Assembly: GCA_025766275.1 (NCBI GenBank) | Contig: JAFKAC010000018.1 | Coordinates: forward strand, 372,001-436,000 | Source of the DNA: Lactarius indigo | Taxonomy: Eukaryota > Basidiomycota > Agaricomycetes > Russulales > Russulaceae | Direction: 5' to 3' | Length of the DNA: 64,000 bases | Part shown: positions 10,113 through 58,116 of the stretch, in pieces | Layout of the letters: each line of letters starts with the position of its first letter | Position numbering within the stretch: the stretch's first letter is position 1 | The notes under the pieces: generated by a model | Databases searched by the model: none | Told to the model about the DNA's origin: nothing | What the model saw: the letters and a program-made list of their open reading frames with translations, nothing else | Program-made: the position numbers and the translations under genes

Positions 10113-10622
10113 TGTTACGTTTCGACTCAGACCCTTACTGTACCGGTTGTCACTACGGCGGTAAGGTATATTAGTGACGGACTTACTTACGACCGCGCGG
10201 TGATAAGGTAGCACGATAGGAGATACGGTACTGATTGATGACTGAGAACGGATGCCACTGATACTAGTACTAGTAGTACTAGGGTTTGAGATACTTACGC
10301 GATATGTTGGACGCTTACTTACGGTGACTCATAGCAGCGCTTGAAAGCCTGCTCATTTGTATTTAATCTGTCTTGTGAAGACCAAGATACGCCATCTTGG
10401 TCTTCTTGAATCGTCACTTGTTTCTCTTTCTCTCTCTCTCTCTCTCTCTCTATCGCCTCTGTCAGATTAAGTGCACCTTCGAGTGTTCACCATCGCCTTT
10501 GCTTGGACCTTCGCGTCTTCAAGATATTCGTCACGCCTGAATCTCTGTGTCTTCAGGACATCCGCTAAGTTGTTACCGCCTCTATAGAGCTCAAGTCGAG
10601 CTAACGTCGTGACGGCGTTACA
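10113..10622 (+). repeat. family 1 inner copy, 5' LTR with core promoter
   Basis: TATTTAA at 10360-10366. 34 nt on, at 10394, begins ATCTTGGTCTT, the second arm of a 12-bp inverted repeat and the predicted mRNA 5' end, because it is complementary to the primer site at 10625-10635. A (CT)n tract (about 10428-10451) lies shortly downstream. Confidence 0.92.
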
Positions 10623-10624
10623 TT

Positions 10625-10635
10625 AAGACCAAGAT
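10625..10635 (+). promoter_or_regulatory. self-primer binding site, family 1
   Basis: AAGACCAAGAT starts two bases after the LTR and is exactly complementary to 10394-10404, the predicted 5' end of the transcript. This is the arrangement known for Tf1, which primes reverse transcription with its own mRNA 5' end and not with a tRNA. No TGG-type tRNA site is present here. Confidence 0.75.
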
Positions 10636-10641
10636 CCCACC

Positions 10642-11097
10642 GTGGCCGTAACAACAAGAGACCAGTGGACGAACTTCCGTCCATATTCGCTCCCAAGAAG
10701 AGGAGAACGTAACGTCCCCACGCGCTTTCTACAAGCTGCTAATTGGAGGGAAAGACAAGAAGAAACCGGGTACTTCGTGGAGTTTAACGGACCTAGTAGG
10801 TTCCGACCAGTTGAGTTCAACTTCGACCACTTGTGTTGGACGGAGGTTGCGTGGAACCCTATAGATTCCCATTGGGACGTCATACGACCAGCAGGACCTA
10901 GATACCAGTGCGATATCGACGCCCGGGAACTCAATAGCCGAGCAGATTGGGGCCCCATCGACGGGCAAGTACGAGAACACTCTACTGGAGAGGCAATATC
11001 AGAAGAAGAGGAACAAAGCCAAGACGAAAGTGAAGGACGAGAGCCAAATCAAACAGAAACTAGTGGGGGAGCAATACAAGATCTCCTCATCGAATGA
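10642..11097 (+). pseudogene. Gag N-terminal extension, GUG start, broken by TGA
   Basis: An in-frame TAA at 10624 and conserved residues from 10657 confine the start to about 30 nt. The only NUG codon there is GTG at 10642, in context CCACCGTGG. The frame encodes a conserved domain (phrases TGYFVEFNGP, FRPVEFNFDHLCW, WDVIRPAG, QCDIDARELNSRADWG). It ends at TGA 11095-11097, where the outer copy has CGA. The original frame ran on into the Gag core at 11155. About 80 percent of residues match family 2, so the stretch was selected as protein although it has no AUG. Confidence 0.7.
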
Positions 11098-11154
11098 GCT
11101 GAGTCCGCACGCATTACTGAACCAGAGCCAATTCACATCCGATCACCAGCCATC

Positions 11155-12708
11155 ATGGCGACAGTAACAAGAGCAATGGAAGAAGTCGCGATTGAGGAAG
11201 CGCGCGCAATACGAGAAGAGGCACGAGAAATCCTCATGCCCATCAACCCTGAAACCGGTGTACGAATGACTGCAGACGACGCAGCCATCTTCCGAGCAAT
11301 AGGGTCAGATCGAGGAGACCCCCCGTCCGGGCGACAACCCGCACTGGACCTCCCACCGGGAATGGGAGGACCAGGCGGAGATCCACCACCGCCACCAGGG
11401 GGGGGCATCCCGTTTGATCTACGAAGAACCGAACCGCCAAGAATGCCACCCAGGGGACCGCCAGGAGGTGGAGGAGGCGATGGCGGCGGAGGAGGAGGTG
11501 GAGGAAACGCCGGAGGAGGAGGACATCATAACGAAAAACTAACCGGCGAGCCACCTTCCATTTTTGACGGAGACAGACTCAAAGTAGACCAATTCCTAAC
11601 GCAGTGGCACGTCTACTGGGGCATGAATTTGGACGCCCCTATCATGCGCAACGATTACAGAAGATGCCTTCTGTTTCTTTCCTACATTAAAGGCGGAGCG
11701 GTCAGCGAATGGGTCCTATCCTTCCTGAACTGGCTCAACAGGCAAATACAATGGGGAATAAGTCCCTACACCCGTGACCTATGGGACGCCGTAGCCGATG
11801 GGTTCAGCCAGAGGTTCGAAAACACGCTAGAAAGGGAACAAGCCCAAGCCATACTACGAAAAGGGTACAAAATGACGGGAGAAGACGTTGACAAGTACGT
11901 CAATGACTTTGAGCAGCTCGCACGGAAAGCTCACTATCGCCTCAATGAACCCCAAACTATCGACCTCTTTACGTCGGGGCTACCCAAGGAGTTGTTCAAG
12001 AACGCGTTCCAGTTCGATGATCCCGTCACGTTCGATGACTGGAAAAGGGCCGTCCTCAAGCGGCAGAAGAACTATATTCACCTCAAGGTGCGACTCAATG
12101 AGTACAAAAATACGACAACACAGCCAAAGAAGCAGGGCGGCAATGCGGGATGGACACTCCCACAAAATCTGCCACAAACTAACCCGTGGGCAATGGACAC
12201 CTCGGCTGACCGTGCAAAGGTGAGGCTCGCGGGGTCCGAAGATATCGATTTCAACAAATTGCCACACCGTGACTGGCCCACACCACCGTTCCCGCCGAGA
12301 GGAGGACCAGGAACTAGAGGACGAGGAAGAGGAGGATCTCGAAGGGACTTAAGGAATGTCCTTTGCTATAACTGTCACGCTCCCGGCCACCTCTCACGAA
12401 ATTGCCCATATCCGCGTACGCAGCAACAATGGCAGGCTACCCCATCCAGTAGCCGCATGACCGAAACTACGGGATACCCTCAAGGACCCGTCTCACAGTA
12501 CGCGCCATCACAGTACGCGCCGTCGCTGCCAGGGTATATGTCGCCGGCGCCAAGCGTAACGCCCGCACCCCAAATCAACGCGGCGAGCACAAAAACGGCG
12601 GGAGAACAGGCCAAAGAATGGCTCACACAGGTGGCCAACAGCACGGACGAAGTAAAAGATCTCATACTTCAAGATCTATGGGGAAAAGAGGGTTTTCGGG
12701 ACGCCTGA
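11155..12708 (+). CDS. gypsy family 1 Gag core, inner copy
   Basis: 517 codons from ATG 11155 (ATCATGGCG), the first AUG of the ancestral mRNA. A proline/glycine-rich stretch (residues about 60-120, with long glycine runs) precedes the capsid-like part (FDGDRLKVDQFLTQWHVYWG, LEREQAQAILRKGYKMT). A CCHC zinc knuckle (CYNCHAPGHLSRNC) lies near residue 404. Gag forms the particle and packages the RNA. It is in frame with the extension at 10642 except for the TGA. The C-terminus overlaps Pol. Confidence 0.9.
   Translation: MATVTRAMEEVAIEEARAIREEAREILMPINPETGVRMTADDAAIFRAIGSDRGDPPSGRQPALDLPPGMGGPGGDPPPPPGGGIPFDLRRTEPPRMPPRGPPGGGGGDGGGGGGGGNAGGGGHHNEKLTGEPPSIFDGDRLKVDQFLTQWHVYWGMNLDAPIMRNDYRRCLLFLSYIKGGAVSEWVLSFLNWLNRQIQWGISPYTRDLWDAVADGFSQRFENTLEREQAQAILRKGYKMTGEDVDKYVNDFEQLARKAHYRLNEPQTIDLFTSGLPKELFKNAFQFDDPVTFDDWKRAVLKRQKNYIHLKVRLNEYKNTTTQPKKQGGNAGWTLPQNLPQTNPWAMDTSADRAKVRLAGSEDIDFNKLPHRDWPTPPFPPRGGPGTRGRGRGGSRRDLRNVLCYNCHAPGHLSRNCPYPRTQQQWQATPSSSRMTETTGYPQGPVSQYAPSQYAPSLPGYMSPAPSVTPAPQINAASTKTAGEQAKEWLTQVANSTDEVKDLILQDLWGKEGFRDA
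12681..12696 (+). promoter_or_regulatory. -1 frameshift signal, two slippery heptamers
   Basis: In the Gag frame the sequence reads G GGA AAA (12681-12687) and then G GGT TTT (12690-12696), both of the X XXY YYZ form used for -1 ribosomal frameshifting. The Gag stop follows at 12706 and Pol is in the -1 frame. The same pair is kept in family 2 at 43660-43675 and 28889-28874. Confidence 0.65.
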
Positions 12709-28892: not shown

Positions 28893-30850
28893 ATTTCTTG
28901 TAGTATGAGATCCTTCACCTCATCCGGGGCATTGGCGACCCCAGTGAGCCACTCTTTGGCTCGTTCTTCGGCTGTCTTACTTGTTGAGGCGGCGTTTATC
29001 TGAGCTGGGGGTGCCTCTTGGGCGTAGTAGTCTGTTTCCGTCATTCGGACGGTTGAGGGTCCCTGATTTTGCGTTTGCCACTGTCGTGGTTGTCTGGGGC
29101 TAGGACAATTCCGTGAGAGGTGGCCGGGTGCGTTGCAGTTATAGCACAACACTGTCCTTAGGTCTCGCCGGGATCCTCCCCTTCCTCGTCCTCTTGTTCC
29201 TGGCCCCCCTCTAGGCGGGTAGGGAGGTAAGTTTGTATACGGTGGCTTACCGTAGTCGATTTCCTCCGATCCTGCAAGCCTAGCTTTGGTTCGGTCGGTG
29301 GACGTATCCATTGCCCACGGGTTTGCGAGGTTTTGGGGGACGGTCCATCCGGCATTGCCCGTTTTCTTCGGCTTATTGTCCTTGTACTCATCCACTCTTG
29401 CTCGAATGTGGATATAGTTGCGCTGTCTGCGAAGCGTCGCTCGCTTCCATTCGTCGAATGTTTCTGGTTCGTCCAGATCATACGTCTTTTCGTACAGCTT
29501 CTTGGGTAACCCTTTGGTGAATAGGTCGATGGTCTGGGGGTCATTGAGGCGGTATCCTGCTTTTCTAGCGGCTTCTTCAAACTCATTGACGTATTTGTCA
29601 ATATCTCCATCGGTCATTTTGAGTCCCTTTCTTAGAAGCGCTTGAGCTTGTTCTCGTTCGAGGGTGTTAACGAACCTTTGGTTAAAGCCCTCTGCTACTG
29701 CGTTCCACAGATCTCTCGTATGTTGATCTATTCCGCGTTGTATTTGCCGATTGAGCCATTTGAGGTACGAAAGTACCCATTCGCTGACTGATACCCCTTT
29801 TATGTAAGATAGGAACAGGAGGCTTCGTCGGTAGTCGTTTCGCATGACAGGGGTGTCGAGGTTCATTCCCCAATAGACATGCCATTGCGTGAGGAATGAG
29901 TCCACTTTAGTACGGTCTCCGTCAAAGATGGTGGGAGGTTCACCGGTCAGTTTTTCATGGCCATGTCCTCCTCCTCCTGCACCGCCCCCTCCGCCACCGC
30001 CTCCTCCTGGTGGTCCTCCTTCTGGCGGGTTGTTTGGGAGGTCCGGTGGGTTTCCCCCTCCTCCTGGACGTCGTGGAAAATCTCCTCCTGGTGGCCCTCC
30101 CCATCCTGGTGGAGGATCCAGCGGTATTCCTCGTCTTAGCCCATCTCCTGACGGGGGGTCCCCTTGGTCGGGTCCAATAGCCCGGAAAATTGCTGCGTCG
30201 TCTGCCGTCATACGATGCCCCGTTTCAGGGTTGATGGGCATGAGATTCCGTTGTGACTCTTGTCTAATCGCTTCGGCCGCTTCTCTTGCCGCTTGTTCTC
30301 TGACAGTCATGATTTCTTCGGCTGTCATGGTGGTGGTTGCCATTTCTGCTGCTGGTGATTGTACGTGAATGATCTCTGGCTGGTCCGTGATGCGTAGAGA
30401 CTCAGCTTGTTGGATAGTATACTGCTCAATAGGCCCAACGCTTGCGGGTCGTGGTTCTTCGCTTTGGTCGTCTTCTTCGGTTTCTTCGCTAACTGCTTCT
30501 CCGGTGGAGTGTTCTCGTAATTGACCGTCAATAGGTCCCCAGTCAGCTCGTGAGTTGAGCTCGCGTGCGTCTATGTCGCACTGGTACTGTCTTCCTGCTG
30601 GTCTTATGACGTCCCAGCGGTGGTCTATGGGGTTCCACGTAACTTCCACCCAACACAAGTGATCAAAATTGAACTCAACAGGTCTGAACCTTGTAGGTCC
30701 GTTGAACTCTACAAAGTATCCGGTCTCGTCTCCTCGATCTCTCCACCTGGCTGCTCCTAGAAATCGAGTTGGTACGTTGCGGTCTCCTCTTCTGTCTAGA
30801 TGGTAGGGACGGAAGCTCGTCCACTGGTCTCTGGTATTGACAGTCGCCAC
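28862..30850 (-). CDS. gypsy family 2 Gag (copy a), apparent GUG start
   Basis: 662 codons from GTG at 30850 (ATCGTGG). The first 169 codons contain no Met and form the conserved N-terminal domain (TGYFVEFNGP, WDVIRPAG, QCDIDARELNSRADWG). ATG at codon 170 opens the core. A proline/glycine-rich linker is followed by the capsid-like part and a CCHC knuckle (CYNCNAPGHLSRNC). A shorter Gag from the AUG is equally possible; both may be made. The start rests on conservation of the extension and absence of any AUG upstream. Confidence 0.85.
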   Translation of the reverse strand: MATVNTRDQWTSFRPYHLDRRGDRNVPTRFLGAARWRDRGDETGYFVEFNGPTRFRPVEFNFDHLCWVEVTWNPIDHRWDVIRPAGRQYQCDIDARELNSRADWGPIDGQLREHSTGEAVSEETEEDDQSEEPRPASVGPIEQYTIQQAESLRITDQPEIIHVQSPAAEMATTTMTAEEIMTVREQAAREAAEAIRQESQRNLMPINPETGHRMTADDAAIFRAIGPDQGDPPSGDGLRRGIPLDPPPGWGGPPGGDFPRRPGGGGNPPDLPNNPPEGGPPGGGGGGGGGAGGGGHGHEKLTGEPPTIFDGDRTKVDSFLTQWHVYWGMNLDTPVMRNDYRRSLLFLSYIKGVSVSEWVLSYLKWLNRQIQRGIDQHTRDLWNAVAEGFNQRFVNTLEREQAQALLRKGLKMTDGDIDKYVNEFEEAARKAGYRLNDPQTIDLFTKGLPKKLYEKTYDLDEPETFDEWKRATLRRQRNYIHIRARVDEYKDNKPKKTGNAGWTVPQNLANPWAMDTSTDRTKARLAGSEEIDYGKPPYTNLPPYPPRGGPGTRGRGRGGSRRDLRTVLCYNCNAPGHLSRNCPSPRQPRQWQTQNQGPSTVRMTETDYYAQEAPPAQINAASTSKTAEERAKEWLTGVANAPDEVKDLILQEMWGKEGFRSA
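28874..28889 (-). promoter_or_regulatory. -1 frameshift signal, family 2a
   Basis: GGGAAAA (28889-28883) and GGGTTTT (28880-28874) in Gag phase, just before the Gag stop at 28862. Identical in position to copy b and family 1. Confidence 0.65.
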
Positions 30851-30858
30851 GATGAGTG

Positions 30859-30869
30859 ATCTTGGTCTT
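30859..30869 (-). promoter_or_regulatory. self-primer binding site, family 2a
   Basis: AAGACCAAGAT on the minus strand, two bases inside the 5' LTR, complementary to ATCTTGGTCTT downstream of the LTR TATA box. Confidence 0.75.
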
Positions 30870-30871
30870 AA

Positions 30872-31324
30872 TGTAACGCCGTCACGACGTTAGCTCGACT
30901 TGAGCTCGATTAAGGCGACCTGGCTACTTAGCTAATCACGCTATAGAGCGTATGGCACAAAGGCGACTTCTAGATGTTCGAAGACACTAGTATAACTGCG
31001 GTACTCAGACCCAGATAAGGGGCGAGATGCTCGAGATGCGGAATGGAGAAGTGACGATTGAAGAAGACCAAGATGGCGTATCTTGGTCTTCCGCAGCTAC
31101 CTTAAATACAGAAGAGCAGGCTTTCAAGCGCTGCTATGAGTCACAGTATTGTAGCGTCCAACGTATCGCATAAGTACCGCGATCCTAATACTACTACTAC
31201 CTGTACTAGGATCGAGTCATCCTTCAACGCCTAACTCCTATCGTAAATGCCGAGTCCGTGACTAATCTACCTTACAGCCGTAGCCACAACCGGTACAGTA
31301 AGGGTCCAATGCGAAACCGTAACA
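30872..31324 (-). repeat. family 2a 5' LTR
   Basis: 453 bp. The only difference from the 3' LTR is GCACAAAGG against GCACGAAGG, a CpG change. Confidence 0.95.
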
Positions 31325-35627: not shown

Positions 35628-36206
35628 TGTTATGATCCGACGCTTCGGACCTCAATCACAGTATGTTTCCACCTTGCCTTTCCCCTTCTGTACTATACCT
35701 TGTTACCAAAGGAGCTATTGTGATTAGTAGCGCTGTTTCTTTGATCCGAACTTCTGTTTACTCCGTTTAGTCTCTTTGATGTTGTGTGGACTTGTGTTCA
35801 TGTTGTTTGGAACCTCGTCCTATATAAACCTGTACCATAGACCGTAGGAAGCCAGACTTGGCTTCGTTTGCAATCTAGCAACCTTGCCTTCGTACTTTGG
35901 TGTGACCTCGCCTTATCCCTCTCTTCTTGTGCATCCCCTACCTCAGTCCCTAACCAGGACACTTCGAAGTCTTTGCAGTTGAACTATATCAACGCGTCAC
36001 ACCTGTTATACTCTGTGCACTAGCAAGATCAAGTGTAGAGAAGTGTTAGACACTTCGGACGAGGAGTCCTACGTTACAGAGTAGTGCTGCACTTTGTGCC
36101 ACACTTTTATCACTTGTATTTCATAGCAACAAGACGACAGAAGTCTTCGCTTGATACTTGTGTGATTCAGAACCTTTAGAACCCACGCCCCTGCTAGGGC
36201 GTAACA
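35628..36206 (+). repeat. family 3 5' LTR with core promoter
   Basis: TATATAAA at 35821-35828. AGACTTGGCTT at 35854-35864 is the predicted mRNA start, 33 nt on, complementary to the primer site at 36208-36218. Confidence 0.94.
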
Positions 36207-36207
36207 T

Positions 36208-36218
36208 AAGCCAAGTCT
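36208..36218 (+). promoter_or_regulatory. self-primer binding site, family 3
   Basis: AAGCCAAGTCT, one base after the LTR, is the exact complement of 35854-35864. The sequence is unrelated to that of families 1 and 2, so the pairing is kept while the bases changed. Confidence 0.75.
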
Positions 36219-36414
36219 ACAACTCCCAACACACCCAAGACACTACTGCCACACAGCAGAGTGGGCGACGATCCAAGAGGACGCATCAGCCAACAACCAG
36301 ACACTCCACAGAACCCAGAAACGACGGCATAGCCGGGCGACGGATCCTCCTTGACACAAGAGGCCGCTTCAGCCATCCCCTTACACAAATCAGCACCCAA
36401 GACAGGCCACAATC
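36219..36414 (+). other. family 3 leader, AUG-free
   Basis: 196 nt after the primer site with no ATG in any frame. A TGA in the Gag frame near 36353 bounds the extension. Confidence 0.5.
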
Positions 36415-38106
36415 GTGGCTAGCATCAGTGTCACCTTTGAATCAGACAACGATTGGACCCCAGTCACAACCAGAACACAAGACGACCTCCCACACCACGT
36501 TAAAAGCAGTCAACTAGGAAAAGGAGCTCGCTGGGCCACAACATCAGGCAGACCACCTTGTTACAAGTGCCTCATCAAAGGCGAACTCAGGCCAGTGGAA
36601 TTCATCAACAACAACTGGTACATCCTCCGATACTTTCAAAATACATACCACACCAGAGCCATAAACATCACACCACACAGATTTGCTGAAGGACTAGGCT
36701 GGTGGAACGAAGAAGACGAACAGAACCCAGAAACGCCCACCCAACAATCATCCTCAGCACCAAGAAACACTAGGGGAACATACGGACTACAACAAGACTC
36801 ATCATCAGAAGAACCCAGCTCAGACGAAGCGGAATCACACTCAGAACTATCCCATTCCTCAGAACACCGCCTAGACATCACAGTACCCACACAAGCTTCA
36901 TCACAAGCCAGCCCCACTATCCCCATCTGGATAGAACCATCCCCAGCGGAAGAAGGATTCCCAGCCCCACTACCACCAATCAGATTGCCCTCCCCAGTCG
37001 AACCACCCCAGATCCCCATCACACCACAGCCAACACTTATCATGTCAGCCATAAACGCCACAGGCACTGGCACAGGTACCGGCTCAAGCACCGGAACAGG
37101 AGGAACACCAACAACGAGCTCAGGGGGACTCAAAGGAGCACCTCCTACTCCGTTCACCGGAGACAGAACAGAGAGTGGTCAGTTCAAAAGAGAACTACTA
37201 CGATACATCAAGTTAAATAGCGAGAATGAACTCATCAAAGAACCTTATGCACGAGTACTATTCGCCCTTACAATGTTCAAAGGACCTGGTGTACAGCTGT
37301 GGGTCAACCAAACCGAAGATGACATGGAAGCGGCACTAGCAGACCCCACCAAAGCCCTCACCAAAAACAGCAAAGATCTTTGGGACGGTTTTCTCGACAC
37401 CTTCGACAGAGACTGGACCGACACTCTAAACAAAGAAAGAGCCTACCAGAAGCTCATCAGTCTGACGATGCAAGGTGGAGCGCTGGACAGTTACATCCTC
37501 GACTTCGAACACCTTGCAGGAATAGCAGGATGGGCAAGAGATGCCCCTGGAACGGTGGAATTCTTTAAAAGAGGACTACCCACAGGGCTGTACCGTGCTT
37601 GCCTTATGCGAACCACCATCCCAAACACCATGGACGAGTGGCAAACCGCTGCCAGAGCAGAACACCAACGCTGGAAGCTGCTAAAAGCCAGACCAGGGAA
37701 TAGAAACCCAGGGCCAACCCAGAATGTCCACCAAGGACGACCAAAGCGAGACCCAAACGCGATGGATGTAGATGCCACCACCTCCACCCCCTTTAAGAAG
37801 CTTACTGAAGAAGAAAAGAAAGCCCTCATGAAAGAAGGACGCTGCTTCAAATGTAGACAACAAGGACATATGGCAAGGAACTGTCAACGACAAAACACCA
37901 CCAACCAAACCAAAGCCAGAGCCACAGACACTCAAGAAGCGGACACTGCACCCCCATACACCCCAGAAGCAAGCACCTCATCGGTGGCTGCTACCACAAC
38001 CGAAGATAAAGTCCGACAAGCCCATGCACTCGTCCAAGGCATGACTGAGGATGAAAAGAGACGCTACTATGCCTTAGATCAGGATTTTTGCGATACCGAC
38101 CTGTGA
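36415..38106 (+). CDS. gypsy family 3 Gag, apparent GUG start
   Basis: 563 codons from GTG 36415 (ATCGTGGCT), or 354 codons from the first AUG at 37042. The extension has conserved-looking tryptophans and cysteines (CYKCLIKGELRPVEFINNNW), then a Ser/Pro-rich acidic stretch. The core has a Gly/Thr-rich linker, the capsid-like part (FTGDRTESGQFKRELLRYIK, LNKERAYQKLISLTMQGG) and a CCHC knuckle (CFKCRQQGHMARNC) near residue 478. It is not interrupted. The Gag stop lies in the overlap with Pol. Confidence 0.85.
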   Translation: MASISVTFESDNDWTPVTTRTQDDLPHHVKSSQLGKGARWATTSGRPPCYKCLIKGELRPVEFINNNWYILRYFQNTYHTRAINITPHRFAEGLGWWNEEDEQNPETPTQQSSSAPRNTRGTYGLQQDSSSEEPSSDEAESHSELSHSSEHRLDITVPTQASSQASPTIPIWIEPSPAEEGFPAPLPPIRLPSPVEPPQIPITPQPTLIMSAINATGTGTGTGSSTGTGGTPTTSSGGLKGAPPTPFTGDRTESGQFKRELLRYIKLNSENELIKEPYARVLFALTMFKGPGVQLWVNQTEDDMEAALADPTKALTKNSKDLWDGFLDTFDRDWTDTLNKERAYQKLISLTMQGGALDSYILDFEHLAGIAGWARDAPGTVEFFKRGLPTGLYRACLMRTTIPNTMDEWQTAARAEHQRWKLLKARPGNRNPGPTQNVHQGRPKRDPNAMDVDATTSTPFKKLTEEEKKALMKEGRCFKCRQQGHMARNCQRQNTTNQTKARATDTQEADTAPPYTPEASTSSVAATTTEDKVRQAHALVQGMTEDEKRRYYALDQDFCDTDL

Positions 38107-41100: not shown

Positions 41101-41225
41101 CGCACCCTAGTTTCAAGTTAGCCCCAAAAAGATATGGACCCTTCAGGGTCACAAAGAAGATCTCCGCCACCACATATGCCCTGAAACTTCCCCATCAGTG
41201 GCGGATCCACCCAGTATTCCATGCG
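38085..41225 (+). CDS. gypsy family 3 Pol, N-terminal two thirds
   Basis: In the -1 frame to Gag. Protease LLDSGATDNLI (about residue 42), RT (KFDIRWGYHN; YMDDVLIA near 367), RNase H (ELEVDASAFATGAIL), integrase zinc module and D, D, E (IALDFITKLP, DRDPRFTAKF, GQSERTNQW). It stops being readable at 41225, where family 2b is inserted, and continues at 48896. The overlap with Gag holds a T5 run (38085-38089) as the only slip candidate, weaker than in families 1 and 2. Confidence 0.93.
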
Positions 41226-41677
41226 TGTTACGGTTTCGCATTGAACCCTTACTGTACCGGTTGTGGCTACGGCTGTAAGGTAGATTAGTCACGGACTCGG
41301 CATTTACGATAGGAGTTAGGCGTTGAAGGATGACTCGATCCTAGTACAGGTAGTAGTAGTATTAGGATCGCGGTACTTATGCGATACGTTGGACGCTACA
41401 ATACTGTGACTCATAGCAGCGCTTGAAAGCCTGCTCTTCTGTATTTAAGGTAGCTGCGGAAGACCAAGATACGCCATCTTGGTCTTCTTCGATCGTCACT
41501 TCTCCATTCCGCATTTCGAGCATCTCGCCCCTTATCTGGGTCTGAGTACCGCAGTTATACTAGTGTCTTCGAACATCTAGAAGTCGCCTTTGTGCCATAC
41601 GCTCTATAGCGTGATTAGCTAAGTTGCCAGGTCGCCTTATCGAGCTCAAGTCGAGCTAACGTCGTGACGGCGTTACA
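41226..41677 (+). repeat. family 2b 5' LTR with core promoter
   Basis: TATTTAA 41442-41448. The inverted repeat GAAGACCAAGAT / ATCTTGGTCTTC spans 41459-41487; the predicted mRNA start is 41476. Confidence 0.95.
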
Positions 41678-41679
41678 TT

Positions 41680-41690
41680 AAGACCAAGAT
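41680..41690 (+). promoter_or_regulatory. self-primer binding site, family 2b
   Basis: AAGACCAAGAT, two bases after the LTR, complementary to 41476-41486. Confidence 0.75.
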
Positions 41691-41698
41691 CACTCATC

Positions 41699-43687
41699 GT
41701 GGCGACTGTCAATACCAGAGACCAGTGGACGAGCTTCCGTCCCTACCATCTAGACAGAAGAGGAGACCGCAACGTACCAACTCGATTTCTAGGAGCAGCC
41801 AGGTGGAGAGATCGAGGAGACGAGACCGGATACTTTGTAGAGTTCAACGGACCTACAAGGTTCAGACCTGTTGAGTTCAATTTTGATCACTTGTGTTGGG
41901 TGGAAGTTACGTGGAACCCCATAGACCACCGCTGGGACGTCATAAGACCAGCAGGAAGACAGTACCAGTGCGACATAGACGCACGCGAGCTCAATTCACG
42001 AGCTGACTGGGGACCTATTGACGGTCAATTACGAGAACACTCCACCGGAGAAGCAGTTAGCGAAGAAACCGAAGAAGACGACCAAAGCGAAGAACCACGA
42101 CCCGCAAGCGTTGGGCCTATTGAGCAGTATACTATCCAACAAGCTGAGTCTCTACGCATCACGGACCAGCCAGAGATCATTCACGTACGATCACCAGCAG
42201 CAGAAATGGCAACCACCACCATGACAGCCGAAGAAATCATGACTGTCAGAGAACAAGCGGCAAGAGAAGCGGCCGAAGCGATCAGACAAGAGTCACAACG
42301 GAATCTCATGCCCATCAACCCTGAAACGGGGCATCGTATGACGGCAGACGACGCAGCAATTTTTCGGGCTATTGGACCCGACCAAGGGGACCCCCCGTCA
42401 GGAGATGGGCTAAGACGAGGAATACCGCTGGATCCTCCACCAGGATGGGGAGGGCCACCAGGAGGAGATTTTCCACGACGTCCAGGAGGAGGGGGAAACC
42501 CACCGGACCTCCCAAACAACCCGCCAGAAGGAGGACCACCAGGAGGAGGCGGTGGCGGAGGGGGCGGTGCAGGAGGGGGAGGACATGGCCATGAAAAACT
42601 GACCGGTGAACCTCCCACCATCTTTGACGGAGACCGTACTAAAGTGGACTCATTCCTCACGCAATGGCATGTCTATTGGGGAATGAACCTCGACACCCCT
42701 GTCATGCGAAACGACTACCGACGAAGCCTCCTGTTCCTATCTTACATAAAAGGGGTATCAGTCAGCGAATGGGTACTTTCGTACCTCAAATGGCTCAATC
42801 GGCAAATACAACGCGGAATAGATCAACATACGAGAGATCTGTGGAACGCAGTAGCAGAGGGCTTTAACCAAAGGTTCGTTAACACCCTCGAACGAGAACA
42901 AGCTCAAGCGCTTCTAAGGAAGGGACTCAAAATGACCGATGGAGATATTGACAAATACGTCAATGAGTTTGAAGAAGCCGCTAGAAAAGCAGGATACCGC
43001 CTCAATGACCCCCAGACCATCGACCTATTCACCAAAGGGCTACCCAAAAAGCTGTACGAAAAGACGTATGATCTGGACGAACCAGAAACATTCGACGAAT
43101 GGAAGCGAGCGACGCTTCGCAGACAGCGCAACTATATCCACATTCGAGCAAGAGTGGATGAGTACAAGGACAATAAGCCGAAGAAAACGGGCAATGCCGG
43201 ATGGACCATTCCCCAAAACCTCGCAAACCCGTGGGCAATGGATACGTCCGCCGACCGAACCAAAGCTAGGCTTGCAGGATCGGAGGAAATCGACTACGGT
43301 AAGCCACCGTATACAAACTTACCTCCCTACCCGCCTAGAGGGGGGCCAGGAGCAAGAGGACGAGGAAGGGGAGGATCCCGGCGAGACCTGAGGACAGTGT
43401 TGTGCTATAACTGCAACGCACCCGGCCACCTCTCACGGAATTGTCCTAGCCCCAGACAACCACGACAGTGGCAAACGCAAAACCCGGGACCCTCAACCGT
43501 CCGAATGACGGAAACAGACTACTACGCCCAAGAGGCACCCCCAGCTCAGATAAACGCCGCCTCAACAAGTAAGACAGCCGAAGAACGAGCCAAAGAGTGG
43601 CTCACTGGGGTCGCCAATGCCCCGGATGAGGTGAAGGATCTCATACTACAAGAAATGTGGGGAAAAGAGGGTTTTCGGAGCGCCTGA
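41699..43687 (+). CDS. gypsy family 2 Gag (copy b), apparent GUG start
   Basis: 662 codons. GTG 41699 lies 21 nt after the LTR; an in-frame TAA at 41657 bounds the frame upstream. The first AUG of the whole transcript is at 42206, in the same frame, 169 codons later. Domain layout as in copy a: N-terminal domain, acidic stretch (SEETEEDDQSEE), core, Pro/Gly linker, capsid-like part, CCHC knuckle (CYNCNAPGHLSRNC) near 43403. Fully open. Confidence 0.87.
   Translation: MATVNTRDQWTSFRPYHLDRRGDRNVPTRFLGAARWRDRGDETGYFVEFNGPTRFRPVEFNFDHLCWVEVTWNPIDHRWDVIRPAGRQYQCDIDARELNSRADWGPIDGQLREHSTGEAVSEETEEDDQSEEPRPASVGPIEQYTIQQAESLRITDQPEIIHVRSPAAEMATTTMTAEEIMTVREQAAREAAEAIRQESQRNLMPINPETGHRMTADDAAIFRAIGPDQGDPPSGDGLRRGIPLDPPPGWGGPPGGDFPRRPGGGGNPPDLPNNPPEGGPPGGGGGGGGGAGGGGHGHEKLTGEPPTIFDGDRTKVDSFLTQWHVYWGMNLDTPVMRNDYRRSLLFLSYIKGVSVSEWVLSYLKWLNRQIQRGIDQHTRDLWNAVAEGFNQRFVNTLEREQAQALLRKGLKMTDGDIDKYVNEFEEAARKAGYRLNDPQTIDLFTKGLPKKLYEKTYDLDEPETFDEWKRATLRRQRNYIHIRARVDEYKDNKPKKTGNAGWTIPQNLANPWAMDTSADRTKARLAGSEEIDYGKPPYTNLPPYPPRGGPGARGRGRGGSRRDLRTVLCYNCNAPGHLSRNCPSPRQPRQWQTQNPGPSTVRMTETDYYAQEAPPAQINAASTSKTAEERAKEWLTGVANAPDEVKDLILQEMWGKEGFRSA
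43660..43675 (+). promoter_or_regulatory. -1 frameshift signal, family 2b
   Basis: GGGAAAA (43660-43666) and GGGTTTT (43669-43675) in Gag phase; Gag stop 43685-43687; Pol in the -1 frame. Confidence 0.65.
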
Positions 43688-48438: not shown

Positions 48439-48890
48439 TGTTACGGTTTCGCATTGAACCCTTACTGTACCGGTTGTGGCTACGGCTGTAAGGTAGATTA
48501 GTCACGGACTCGGCATTTACGATAGGAGTTAGGCGTTGAAGGATGACTCGATCCTAGTACAGGTAGTAGTAGTATTAGGATCGCGGTACTTATGCGATAC
48601 GTTGGACGCTACAATACTGTGACTCATAGCAGCGCTTGAAAGCCTGCTCTTCTGTATTTAAGGTAGCTGCGGAAGACCAAGATACGCCATCTTGGTCTTC
48701 TTCGATCGTCACTTCTCCATTCCGCATTTCGAGCATCTCGCCCCTTATCTGGGTCTGAGTACCGCAGTTATACTAGTGTCTTCGAACATCTAGAAGTCGC
48801 CTTTGTGCCATACGCTCTATAGCGTGATTAGCTAAGTTGCCAGGTCGCCTTATCGAGCTCAAGTCGAGCTAACGTCGTGACGGCGTTACA
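48439..48890 (+). repeat. family 2b 3' LTR
   Basis: 452 bp, apparently identical to the 5' LTR. Confidence 0.95.
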
Positions 48891-50664: not shown

Positions 50665-51243
50665 TGTTATGATCCGACGCTTCGGACCTCAATCACAGTA
50701 TGTTTCCACCTTGCCTTTCCCCTTCTGTACTATACCTTGTTACCAAAGGAGCTATTGCGATTAGTAGCGCTGTTTCTTTGATCCGAACTTCCGTTTACTC
50801 CGTTTAGTCTCTTTGATGTTGTGTGGACTTGTGTTCATGTTGTTTGGAACCTCGTCCTATATAAACCTGTACCATAGACCATAGGAAGCCAGACTTGGCT
50901 TCGTTTGCAATCTAGCAACCTTGCCTTCGTACTTTGGTGTGACCTCGCCTTATCCCTCTCTTCTTGTGCATCCCCTACCTCAGTCCCTAACCAGGACACT
51001 TCGAAGTCTTTGCAGTTGAACTATATCAACGCGTCACACCTGTTATACTCTGTGCACTAGCAAGATCAAGTGTAGAGAAGTGTTAGACACTTCGGACGAG
51101 GAGTCCTACGTTACAGAGTAGTGCTGCACTTTGTGCCACACTTTTATCACTTGTATTTCATAGCAACAAGACGACAGAAGTCTTCGCTTGATACTTGTGT
51201 GATTCAGAACCTTTAGAACCCACGCCCCTGCTAGGGCGTAACA
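50665..51243 (+). repeat. family 3 3' LTR
   Basis: 579 bp. Three CpG transitions against the 5' LTR. Confidence 0.95.
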
Positions 51244-54544: not shown

Positions 54545-55245
54545 AGATGACCTCTGGATACTCCACATAGACTAGTAGCCTCTATGACCTCAATGCATTT
54601 CCATTGTATTTATGAAGTCCATTGGAGATCCCTGACTATTTCCGACCCACCTATCGTCAGTTACACTATCAATTATCAGAGATGTCCTGATTGGTATATT
54701 CTTATTAGATATCCTCTGAATAGACTACATAGTAGCCTCCATGATCTCTGTTCATTTATATTTTACTTATGATGACCCTCAGAGATCCCCGACTATCTCC
54801 GACCCACCTGTTGTCAATTAGACTATCAATTATAGCGGGTGTCCCGATTGGTATATTATTATTAGATATTCTCCCTAATATGCATAGACTATCAATTGAC
54901 AGTCACCTGTGATCAGACACTCCTTATGTATTCTGTTTCACTTGTATTCATTTGATGTGCTTGCACATATCTGAGTGGATGGTCTTATATGCCTGAGTCT
55001 TGCTCCTTTGATTGATTACACATCACCTTTGGATACTACACATATAATAGCCACCTCTAAGCCTTTCTATTCTGTGTTCGAGTAACTCATCAATCCCCAA
55101 CTATTCCTGACTATCTCCGACCCAGCCGACATCAGTTGGAGTATCAATTACGGCGGAATCTCCACCGTCGGCCGGCGCCGGCTGAGTATGAACTATTAAA
55201 GAATCTCACCGTCGGTTGGGGGTATCAATTACATAAGCCACCGCT
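54545..55245. repeat. degenerate tandem repeat, about three units
   Basis: Shared words mark the units: CTATCTCCGACCCA (or CTATTTCCGACCCA) at about 54634, 54793 and 55112; CAATTA shortly after each; GATTGGTATATT in the first two; and a TGGATACT(C/A)CACAT start at about 54556 and 55032. Unit length is about 160-180 bp in the first two and longer in the third. No coding frame. It could be an old LTR or a satellite fragment. Confidence 0.45.
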
Positions 55246-55254
55246 GATCATTAT

Positions 55255-55824
55255 GTGAGTAAAAGGCGAATGCAGACAGATGTTGAACAAAGGACTAAGC
55301 CGTATTCCTTTAACGTTGGGGATAAAGTCTGGTTGCAAGCTAAGCAGATAAAGATACATCAGCAGTCATCCAAATTAGGGCCAAAGCAACTTGGCCCATT
55401 TGAAGTCACTAAAGTCATAAGTGACGTCAACTATAAGCTTGCATTACCCCCTGCATTACGGATCCATGATGTATTTCATGTAGACCGTCTCTCTCCTTAC
55501 AAAGGAAACGAAGTTAACGGGCTTATGCCTCCACCACCCAATCCAGTAACGGTCGAGGGAGAAGAGGAGTACGAAGTAGACCATATAAGAGATTCCAAAC
55601 TCTTTGGTCGTACTCTTAAATACCTTGTCCATTGGAAAGGATATGGTGAGGGTGAGGACACATGGGAACCGGCTAAAAATCTAGCACATGCCCCTGATAC
55701 AGTTAAGGAATTTCACTCCTCAAACCTGGGCGCACCTAGAAAAATAGTGGCTCTCATATACACGTCCTTGCCTTGGCAGGCTCATCATGTGGATACATTG
55801 GCCAACACGGACGTCAACCCTTAA
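55255..55824 (+). pseudogene. 5'-truncated gypsy Pol tail (fourth family)
   Basis: About 190 codons: the integrase C-terminal part (FNVGDKVWLQAKQIK, GPFEVTKVISD, RIHDVFHVDRLSPYK) and a chromodomain (EYEVDHIRDSK..YLVHWKGYGEGEDTWEPAKNL), then a short tail and TAA. Everything upstream (Gag to integrase core) is missing. It lacks the long post-chromodomain region of the other families. Confidence 0.9.
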
Positions 55825-55836
55825 GGAGGGGGGTGA

Positions 55837-56520
55837 TGTCACAGACGCTCTATTTTCGCCTTATTTTTCTGTATTTCTATGGATTTATTTGGTAGAGATA
55901 CGAGTCTCTAACATTGCGTCAAACATCCAAGTCCATATCTTTAGATATGATAAGATGGTCAGTCACGTGATGCCAACATGTGCACCCACAAGCACGTGAC
56001 CCTGGGATAATAACCTCCTTATTGGATGTTACCTCTTTAGGGCACTTTCCTCATTAGTATAGTAGTTTCTCATTGGACGATAAGCAGGGAACATTCTAGA
56101 TAGTTCTAGACTACGTTGTCATAGGGTTGTGACTCATAGATAAGGACACGTCATTGTTCTGTCAGCATTAATGACTGTGCATCAGTCAGCACAATAGATA
56201 ACACTATTATTAGACACGATGTGTCAGCATCTGACTCATTACTATTACATGTACCTTTAGTAACAAGGTTCTATAGTAATTCGAACTCAGCTGCAGCATA
56301 GTATATAAACCCTCATGTAGCGTCCTGAGTGGAACCAACTTGTCCTCTTGGTTCTCCACTCAGGTGCGCATCCTTTGTATTTCCCTTACTCTTCTCCAAT
56401 GTTAACTTGTCCTCTTGGTTCTCCACTCAGCGTGCCACTGTGTGATCCCCTTGCCTTTGATCTTGTATAAAGATCTCAAGTGTGCATACTCTCCGCAGTG
56501 ACTGTACATTCAGCGCATGA
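55837..56520 (+). repeat. LTR of the truncated gypsy
   Basis: Starts TGTCACAGACG after the purine tract AAGGAGGGGGGTGA. TATATAAA at 56302-56309. Downstream, AACTTGTCCTCTTGGTTCTC occurs at about 56337 and 56403, and the first copy forms a hairpin with TGAGTGGAACCAA (56326-56338). The 3' border is not certain; no partner LTR in the window. Confidence 0.7.
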
Positions 56521-56597
56521 CTTGTCTCCGCATTAGGCTTGAGTGTGTTACCGGTTCAGTTCACTAACACTTCCCTTGGTCTAGTTGTACGCGATAA

Positions 56598-58116
56598 GTC
56601 ATACCGCTACACCCTGAGGTTGAAAAACTCATCCAAGAGGCATGCACTCAGCTCTGTGCCCAGGCCAAGCCCAAAATTGCTGATGTTGTTTGGAAAATTG
56701 AGGCTCGCACTGGTGTCAGCCTTCCTTATCACACTGTTTGCAACTGCTTCAAGGGAAAGCATGTTCCCCCTCAACAAGCTCATGTTGGTCAGCAACTTCT
56801 ATCTTGTGAAGCAGAGACAGTTCTCGTTGATTGGATCACTTTCCTGTCAGACACTGGCCACCCCCTCAGCAAGCGGACTATTCGGAAGAAGGCTGAGGCT
56901 CTCTGTGGGAAGAAGCCAAGCTGGTCCTGGATTCGTTACTTCCTTCAGCGAAACAAAGAGATCAAGCTCAGAAAGCCATCAGGCCTCGACCCAAAACGTG
57001 CTCAGGCCTTCAATAAACCAACAGTACACAAACACTTTGACCTTCTCCTCAAGATCATCCAGAAAAATGAAATACCGGTCAAAAATGTGTATAACATGGA
57101 TGAAAAGGGCTGTCAGAGAGGAGGTGGGCATAAAGGCTCTAACCAGAAATACTTTGTACACAGATCACATCGACCCAAATATAGGGCATGTGGTGGGAAT
57201 CTTGAGCTTGTCACAATCATTGAGTGTGTTTGTGCAGACGGTACCAACCTACTTCCGAGATTTGTCTTTTCTGGGAGAGAATTTGCATGTGAATGGTTTG
57301 AGGTTGATGCCAACATTGGGTGAGTCAAATTGCCCTGTCTCGGTGAGGGTTAATTGGCTAATCACATCTAGGGTTTCTATGTCTGAAAATGGCTGGACAG
57401 ATGACTTCCTCTGTAAAGAGTGGTTCAAAAACTAATTCGTTCCCCAGGCAACTGCTCAAAACACTTCCGGAAAACCCATCCTCCTTATCTATGATGGCCA
57501 TGGTTCACATGAGAATCTCGATCTTATCAATTTTGCCCGAGAGCATAACATCATCCTCTTCTGCCTCCCACCACACATGACCCATAAACTTCAGCCTCTT
57601 GACGTGGAAGTTTTTGGTCCATTTCAATGTGCCTGGTCAGACCGATGTGACCAGATTGTCGATGATACTGGTGAAGAGATGCTGCGAGAAGACTTTGTCA
57701 AGGAGTATATGGATGTCCGCAGCAAAACATTCAAACCAGCTACAATCATCACCGCATTTTGGAAGAGTGGCTGCTGGCCAGTCAATTGTGATGTCTTTAC
57801 CAATGAAGATTATGCACCCAGCATCCCAACATCAACATTGTTGTGCCATGTACCAAACAGTTTCCCCCTTTCCCATGACATTGAAACTCACAAAGAATCT
57901 GATGACGAATCCCCCACCTATCCAACAGGAAGTCCTGACAGCTCTGGGTCCAATGACGAGTCATCTATAACATCTAATGATAACGTGGCTGGTGGCTTCA
58001 ATGATGACAAGTTGCAAACCATCTCCCAACCCCTCTCTGAGTCCACCCAGATAGCCTCCCCTCAGCCCCTTCTTACACTACGTTCGTCTTTTCTTGTGCC
58101 AAATGTTGATAAGTGA
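56598..58116 (+). pseudogene. pogo-like (Tc1/mariner) transposase, catalytic part
   Basis: The frame opens after TAA 56595-56597. Helix-turn-helix-like N-part (WKIEARTGVSLPYHTVCNCF, IRKKAEALCGKKPSWSWIRY), catalytic Asp in YNMDEKG, intron 57320-57371 (GTGAGT..CTAG), then NGWTDDFLCKEW, a nonsense TAA at 57433-57435, the second Asp in LIYDGHGSHE, and PPHMTHKLQPLDVEVFGP with the third. It ends in an acidic Ser-rich stretch and TGA at 58114. The start is missing or lies in a lost exon. The TAA would be CAA before a C to T change. Cut-and-paste transposase of the pogo group; inactive as it stands. Confidence 0.85.

Follow-up and report, generated by a model that had tools for sequence, protein, structure and literature searches.

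A predicted GUG-initiated long Gag in Ty3/gypsy-type retrotransposon families of Lactarius indigo

Element E5, an LTR retrotransposon of family 2, very probably makes its Gag protein in two lengths, a long Gag started at a GUG codon (41699) and a short Gag started at a downstream in-frame AUG (42206), the latter being reached by leaky scanning. From the comparison of copies we infer three things: initiation takes place at the GUG, both forms of Gag are produced, and the short form is the more abundant. E5 lies in a window of 64 000 nt (G000:C90:372001-436000) of a genome of 90.3 Mb in 291 contigs. The window contains nested LTR elements, E5 being inserted within E4, an element of family 4. The features of E5 and of the related copies in the window are listed here.

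41226..41677, plus strand: 5' LTR of E5, identical to the 3' LTR (48439-48890) in 452/452 nt
41442..41449, plus strand: TATA-like box TATTTAAG of E5, 34 nt before the mRNA start
41476..41486, plus strand: mRNA 5' end of E5, ATCTTGGTCTT, complementary to the primer-binding site listed below (self-priming)
41476..41698, plus strand: leader of E5, AUG-free, 223 nt
41680..41690, plus strand: primer-binding site (PBS) of E5, AAGACCAAGAT, 2 nt past the LTR end at 41677
41699..41701, plus strand: proposed GUG start codon of the long Gag of E5, ATCGTGGC
41699..42205, plus strand: N-terminal Gag extension of E5, 169 codons, AUG in no frame
42206..43684, plus strand: short Gag of E5 from the first AUG (context GAAATGG), with Retrotrans_gag domain and CCHC knuckle
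43630..43687, plus strand: Gag/Pol overlap of E5, Pol in the -1 frame
30341..31074, minus strand: E3, second family 2 copy, with similar leader and extension; GUG 30850-30848, AUG 30343-30341
10394..11157, plus strand: E1, family 1 copy; mRNA start 10394, PBS 10625, GUG 10642, in-frame AUG 11155
35854..37044, plus strand: E4, family 4; mRNA start 35854 (AGACTTGGCTT, reverse complement of the PBS at 36208-36218)

The LTRs of E5 (TG...CA) enclose two long overlapping frames, and its short Gag scores above the cut-off for PF03732 (E 1.1e-6) as well as for PF00098 (E 6.8e-7). Judged from the paired LTRs and the Gag domains, E5 is a Ty3/gypsy-type LTR retrotransposon; the identity of its two LTRs marks it as a recent insertion. 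The Gag frame of the Gag/Pol overlap contains G GGA AAA (43660-43666) and G GGT TTT (43669-43675), both of which we take to be of the -1 frameshift type according to the slippery-heptamer rule. E4, with LTRs at 35628-36206 and 50665-51243, has no AUG from 35854 to 37041; its GUG at 36415 (ATCGTGGC) is followed by an extension of 209 codons up to the AUG at 37042. E1 is damaged by one TGA, and the same change creates an ATG at 11094. Further along the window (55237-58116) there are frames resembling what is presumably a chromodomain-type Pol end ('HVDRLSPYKGNE...LVHWKGYGEGEDTWEP') and what we assume to be a DDE transposase-like protein.

The mRNA start predicted at 41476 by the first-pass annotation is borne out by the sequence ATCTTGGTCTT, which is exactly reverse-complementary to AAGACCAAGAT at 41680 and follows the TATTTAAG box at the distance given above. 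In Tf1/sushi elements, the mRNA uses its first 11 nt to pair with a primer-binding site located just after the LTR. The elements studied here are alike in that the first 11 nt of their mRNA are complementary to the PBS near the LTR end: all 11 nt pair in families 1, 2 and 4 (window) and in families 3 and 5 (loci). By this mRNA-PBS complementarity, E5 and its relatives belong with the self-primed elements of Tf1/sushi type. The pairing involves three different 11-mers, that of family 4 (35854/36208) differing from that of family 2, and family 5 having a third. As the 11-mers have changed and still pair, they are good evidence for self-priming, and thus for the mRNA 5' end. To our knowledge, no non-AUG Gag start is known for Tf1. 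AAGACCAAGAT also occurs at 41460, shortly before the mRNA start, so that the two arms of a perfect inverted repeat flank the start site (41460-41486); the other family 1 and family 2 LTRs of the window have the same 11-mer pair.

No ATG occurs in any frame between 41476 and 42205: the plus-strand ATGs are at 41221, 41330 and 41379, and the next is at 42206. The Gag frame is open from 41660 (to 43687), and the ATG at 42206 is in the same frame. All this agrees with the first-pass annotation, whose expectation of 11 ATGs for this interval needs a slight correction to about 10, as calculated from mononucleotide composition (2.96 + 7.11). Its identity of about 80 percent between this extension and that of family 1 holds for DNA (about 77-80% to E1) and is slightly high for protein (72-75% of amino acids, five copies aligned). 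The ATG-free gap of E5 (41379-42206, 827 nt) is the second longest on the plus strand of the window. The longest (35800-37042) spans leader and extension of E4, the third longest (10304-11094) those of E1. When synonymous codons of the E5 extension were permuted, a mean of 4.8 ATGs was obtained as opposed to none observed (P = 0.0004). The context of the GTG at 41699 is CATCGTGGC.

The GTG is retained throughout the families. Among 110 start sites read from families 1-4 of the same genome, 108 have GTG and the other two ATG. Most of these sites (99; 23, 31, 15 and 30 from families 1-4, loci set to one strand) were obtained with a motif parser, giving GTG in 97/99, ATG in 2/99 (L061 and L038) and A at -3 in 99/99. 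The parser motif demands Ala at codon 2, so that G at +4 and C at +5 follow from the motif itself; both bases were also present in 60/60 family 2 and family 4 loci displayed without the motif. GTG was found in 3/3 loci missed by the motif (L098, L020, E2) and in 2/2 second start sites of L025 and L100, which have two sites each, one entering the parsed count and the other this one. The list of family 2 loci comprises 150 of 1733 first-look candidates scored. As a check for ranking bias, six of the eight lowest-ranked family 2 matches among the 150 listed yielded GTG at 6/6 sites. E3, E4 and E5 were excluded from the counts as duplicates of L002, L031 and L001. Family 5, which was found via its Gag domain, has GTG, identified with the pattern CACANTGGC, in 6/6 copies fetched. 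For the two ATG copies, L038 and L061, most relatives have CGTG at the place concerned, perhaps reflecting CpG decay after insertion.

ATG is depleted up to the second start. The copies whose first in-frame ATG precedes codon 160 (3/99: a truncated site in family 1 and two sites in family 3 where an in-frame ATG comes early) were excluded from the dN/dS, synonymous-shuffling, density, splice and position tallies. Since such an exclusion hides ATGs, the out-of-frame ratios and the counts of 25/103 and 70/101 given below come from a recount which includes these copies and five extra sites (104 sites, 103 having an extension) and in which no site was left out on account of its ATGs. The recount leaves our odds for the GUG-plus-AUG model unchanged.

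Upon synonymous shuffling, 4.27, 4.70, 4.37 and 3.54 ATGs per extension are expected in families 1-4; 0.09, 0.16, 0.46 and 0.30 are seen. For ATGs out of frame, the observed/expected numbers are 2/98, 5/154, 7/74 and 9/108 (0.020, 0.033, 0.095 and 0.083). These are the lowest ratios of 64, 64, 64 and 63 trinucleotides, respectively, the next lowest being 0.35, 0.22, 0.37 and 0.33. In bins of 100 nt, there are 0-2.3 ATGs per kb ahead of the second AUG; the density rises to 12-30 in the bin beginning there and ranges over 0.3-47 further on. At -3 of the second AUG, every copy counted has A or G. Of the 101 copies whose start is mapped, 70 lack any ATG over the whole stretch from the mRNA start to the second AUG (19/23, 27/33, 7/16 and 17/29 in families 1-4). 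At least one ATG is present in 25/103 extensions, amounting to 23 out of frame and four in frame; family 3 is the worst in this respect (8/17 extensions). Seven of 96 leaders bear an ATG. The positions of the stray ATGs tallied are each private to one copy in families 1-3, whereas in family 4 one is common to three copies and one to two. A purge of ATGs beyond a start codon can be understood only if the codon is passed by many ribosomes that continue to scan, and we regard it as the mark of scanning past a weak GUG.

A control is provided by F6, a family in which Gag seems to be AUG-started, namely at the first ATG after the mapped mRNA start (L107, L108). Over the corresponding stretch, out-of-frame ATGs are kept in four of its five copies (3, 1, 3 and 3, compared with 4.4, 2.5, 4.4 and 4.4 expected; P 0.20-0.25); the fifth copy has none (P 0.016). 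In family 5 the depletion is weak (P 0.04-0.66, five of six copies tested). All six copies of that family carry an out-of-frame ATG 8 nt ahead of the in-frame second AUG (L104 1197-1207), possibly indicating start competition.

The extension up to the first AUG is 167-174 codons long in families 1-3 and 209 in family 4. Its pairwise dN/dS (codons 2 to end) is 0.045, 0.040, 0.055 and 0.147 in families 1-4, nearly all loci compared being from the top of protein-similarity rankings, which lowers dN, while synonymous divergence is not so selected. Families 1-3 have a synonymous divergence (pS) of 0.33-0.44, family 4 one of 0.05. The variation falls mainly on third positions, and the other two frames give dN/dS values of 1.4-3.0 (families 2 and 4). 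Codons 2-104 of family 4 have a dN/dS of 0.043. A rough comparison of the parts before and after the AUG, made with no realignment, gave 0.036 versus 0.108 in family 2 and 0.150 versus 0.356 in family 4. A dN/dS near 1 had been named by the first-pass annotation as an outcome that would refute its reading; the values found are 0.04-0.06 in families 1-3 and 0.15 in family 4. By these substitution patterns, the extension is shown to be protein-coding and under selection at the protein level.

Upstream of the GTG the situation is different. In family 1, an in-frame stop lies 18 nt ahead of the GTG in 20/23 sites, and the interval between stop and start has no other near-cognate codon in 15/20 loci; some of the others have ATC. 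Family 2 has a PBS-to-GTG spacing of 17-21, family 3 one of 18-19. Given these single-base differences in spacing, the copies of the two families share no continuous frame across the upstream stretch. The comparison of copies thus shows the stretch just upstream of the GTG to be noncoding in families 1-3. The argument is void for family 4, as the frame is open there for 63 nt in 27/30 copies. Proposed by the first-pass annotation, GTG 41699 as start is supported by the retention of GTG, by the low dN/dS of the extension and by an upstream frame that is variable or closed by a stop in families 1-3.

In the proposed mechanism, ribosomes would scan from the cap at 41476 across the AUG-free leader. 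A minority would initiate at GUG 41699, a poor codon in a near-ideal context (A at -3, G at +4), and would produce a long Gag with an N-terminal domain of 169 residues. The remaining ribosomes would bypass the GUG, meet an AUG in no frame for a further 507 nt, and initiate at the in-frame AUG 42206, giving a short Gag with the capsid-type domain and the zinc knuckle. E5 thus has the layout of a dual-start Gag, with an in-frame non-AUG site upstream of the gag AUG and an AUG-poor stretch in between. Leaky scanning from 41699 to 42206, already suggested in the first-pass annotation, fits the selective loss of out-of-frame ATGs up to, and not past, the in-frame AUG. The additional domain may, as a guess, mark a minor form of Gag that gives the particle a further function in packaging or targeting. 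A broader proposal, for and against which we see the chances as balanced, is that GUG is a fixed and selected Gag start in at least five element families of this fungal lineage, and that AUG is selected against at this place since the weakness of GUG sets the ratio of long to short Gag. Family 4 and families 1-3, which are not demonstrably related in the extension, may then have reached or kept this start independently.

Alternatively, a spliced or upstream-started transcript might bring in an ordinary AUG, from which the long Gag would be started. Allowing donors as far as 300 nt ahead of the mRNA start and acceptors up to +60, a junction AUG is possible in 26/29 copies of family 4, 2/31 of family 2, 1/12 of family 3 and 0/22 of family 1. 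However, a donor 5' of the mRNA start contradicts the 5' end fixed by self-priming, and within the self-priming transcript a GT-AG pair that gives an in-frame AUG with an acceptor up to +60 is found in 0/94 copies. With acceptors up to codon 120, junction AUGs within the transcript become possible in 24/29 copies of family 4, 12/22 of family 1, 1/31 of family 2 and 1/12 of family 3 (23, 1, 1 and 1 copies, respectively, when restricted to consensus-like sites). Yet the deep acceptors involved (+181 in 24/29 family 4 copies, +352 in 10/22 family 1 copies) would skip conserved codons, such as codons 2-104 of family 4. The in-frame stop before the GTG of family 1 also argues against an AUG from further upstream. 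On the distribution of splice sites, we consider a spliced leader as the source of an AUG, listed by the first-pass annotation among the refuting findings, unlikely, and transcripts of either kind an improbable explanation overall. The same low probability is assigned to a long Gag made from GUG as the sole product, with AUG 42206 a mere internal methionine and the scarcity of ATG due to some other cause. The long Gag clearly matters, as its extension is strongly constrained and, in the rough comparison, not less so than the part after the AUG. Production of the long form alone gives no reason, though, to purge out-of-frame ATGs past the GUG, whereas the depletion is strongest for ATG and ends at the AUG, which itself has A or G at -3 in every copy counted.

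Still less probable is another near-cognate codon as the real start, for example the AUC or AUU directly before the GTG in families 2-4. An in-frame ATC or ATT does abut the GTG in 27/31 family 2, 15/15 family 3 and 28/30 family 4 sites. Against it, the corresponding codon is ACC or ACT in 21/23 family 1 sites (mostly ACC) and ACA in family 5, whereas all five families retain GTG; the A of the preceding codon would then be the -3 base of the GTG context. Packaging signals are frequent in the 5' regions of retroelement RNA, and the extension might accordingly be an untranslated packaging or dimer signal, the short Gag alone being made. This is hardly credible in view of a dN/dS of 0.04-0.06 at a pS of 0.33-0.44 in families 1-3, of variation at third positions, and of the opposite picture given by the other frames in families 2 and 4. 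GUG initiation combined with leaky scanning to the AUG is the reading that we retain.

By analogy with murine leukaemia virus (MuLV), PEG10 and rice tungro bacilliform virus (RTBV), the mechanism is of a known kind. The glyco-Gag of MuLV is a longer Gag with a CUG start in good context upstream of the gag AUG and in one frame with it; a less conserved GUG has also been reported, and in other gammaretroviruses the glyco-Gag stretch generally has no AUG (PMC5778647). Gag of the E5 type resembles it in being predicted in two lengths, in a single frame and with a non-AUG upstream start, and differs in that the start is GUG, where the main start of MuLV is CUG, and in belonging to a fungal LTR element, not a retrovirus (PMC5778647). 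The glyco-Gag extension of MuLV has a signal peptide (PMC5778647), whereas inspection of the E5 translation by eye revealed no hydrophobic run in its first residues (VATVNTRDQW). For this reason we do not class E5 Gag as a glyco-Gag. PEG10, a mammalian gene derived from a Ty3/Gypsy gag, has a CUG start, an in-frame AUG 34 codons on, and a -1 frameshift to a pol-like frame (PMC2800197). It is similar in having a Gag-type protein with a non-AUG start and a downstream in-frame AUG, and unlike the present elements (GUG, extensions of 167-209 codons) it is a domesticated host gene with CUG and a 34-codon extension; missing in-frame AUGs, not the all-frame purging seen here, are what the accessible part of the report describes (PMC2800197). 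In RTBV, the AUU start of ORF I is used by about 10% of ribosomes while the others scan on, and ORFs I and II lack internal AUGs, resulting in leaky scanning over some 900 nt (PMC5902531). The near-cognate start and the AUG-free stretch behind it are common features; in RTBV the codon is AUU, the products are separate proteins and ribosomes arrive by shunting, in contrast to two lengths of one protein here (PMC5902531). A GUG-started Gag in an LTR retrotransposon was not found in a literature search of titles and abstract openings, subscription papers and preprints being outside its scope; nor did this title- and abstract-level search show a GUG start with an extension of such length and conservation, spread over five families of one fungus.

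A small alpha/beta domain, a helix followed by five strands, is predicted for residues 1-110 of the extension in family 2 (pLDDT about 80, best of five models). In the family 4 model, which is of lower confidence, helices precede five strands. A search of the extension models for a known fold gave no match. Sequence profiles of the extension link families 1-3 to family 5 and not clearly to family 4. With the N-terminus of family 2 Gag, 10 proteins were found, eight of them unnamed proteins from Lactarius. Five of these eight (P0001, P0002, P0003, P0006 and P0008) have long N-terminal stretches not alignable with the rest, and a GUG-started Gag, if true, would explain these odd gene models. It would also place fungal LTR elements beside MuLV and PEG10, which make two Gags with the help of a non-AUG start. 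With many copies per genome, start codon, context and stray AUGs could serve as an experiment in mutation set up by nature, informative on near-cognate initiation in a fungus of basidiomycete type. Protein P0004 of Lactarius pseudohatsudake starts with MAFTTRDQW at the place equivalent to the GTG.

A further Gag family, F7 (496-codon frame; L118 and L101, G000:C257, about 204900-208000), has about 1.55 kb of ATG-free sequence before the Gag AUG in the copy located there. This copy contains a 223-codon ATG-free open frame which overlaps the Gag frame in another frame, and which could be a separate non-AUG ORF of the RTBV kind, or reflect a frameshift or an intron.
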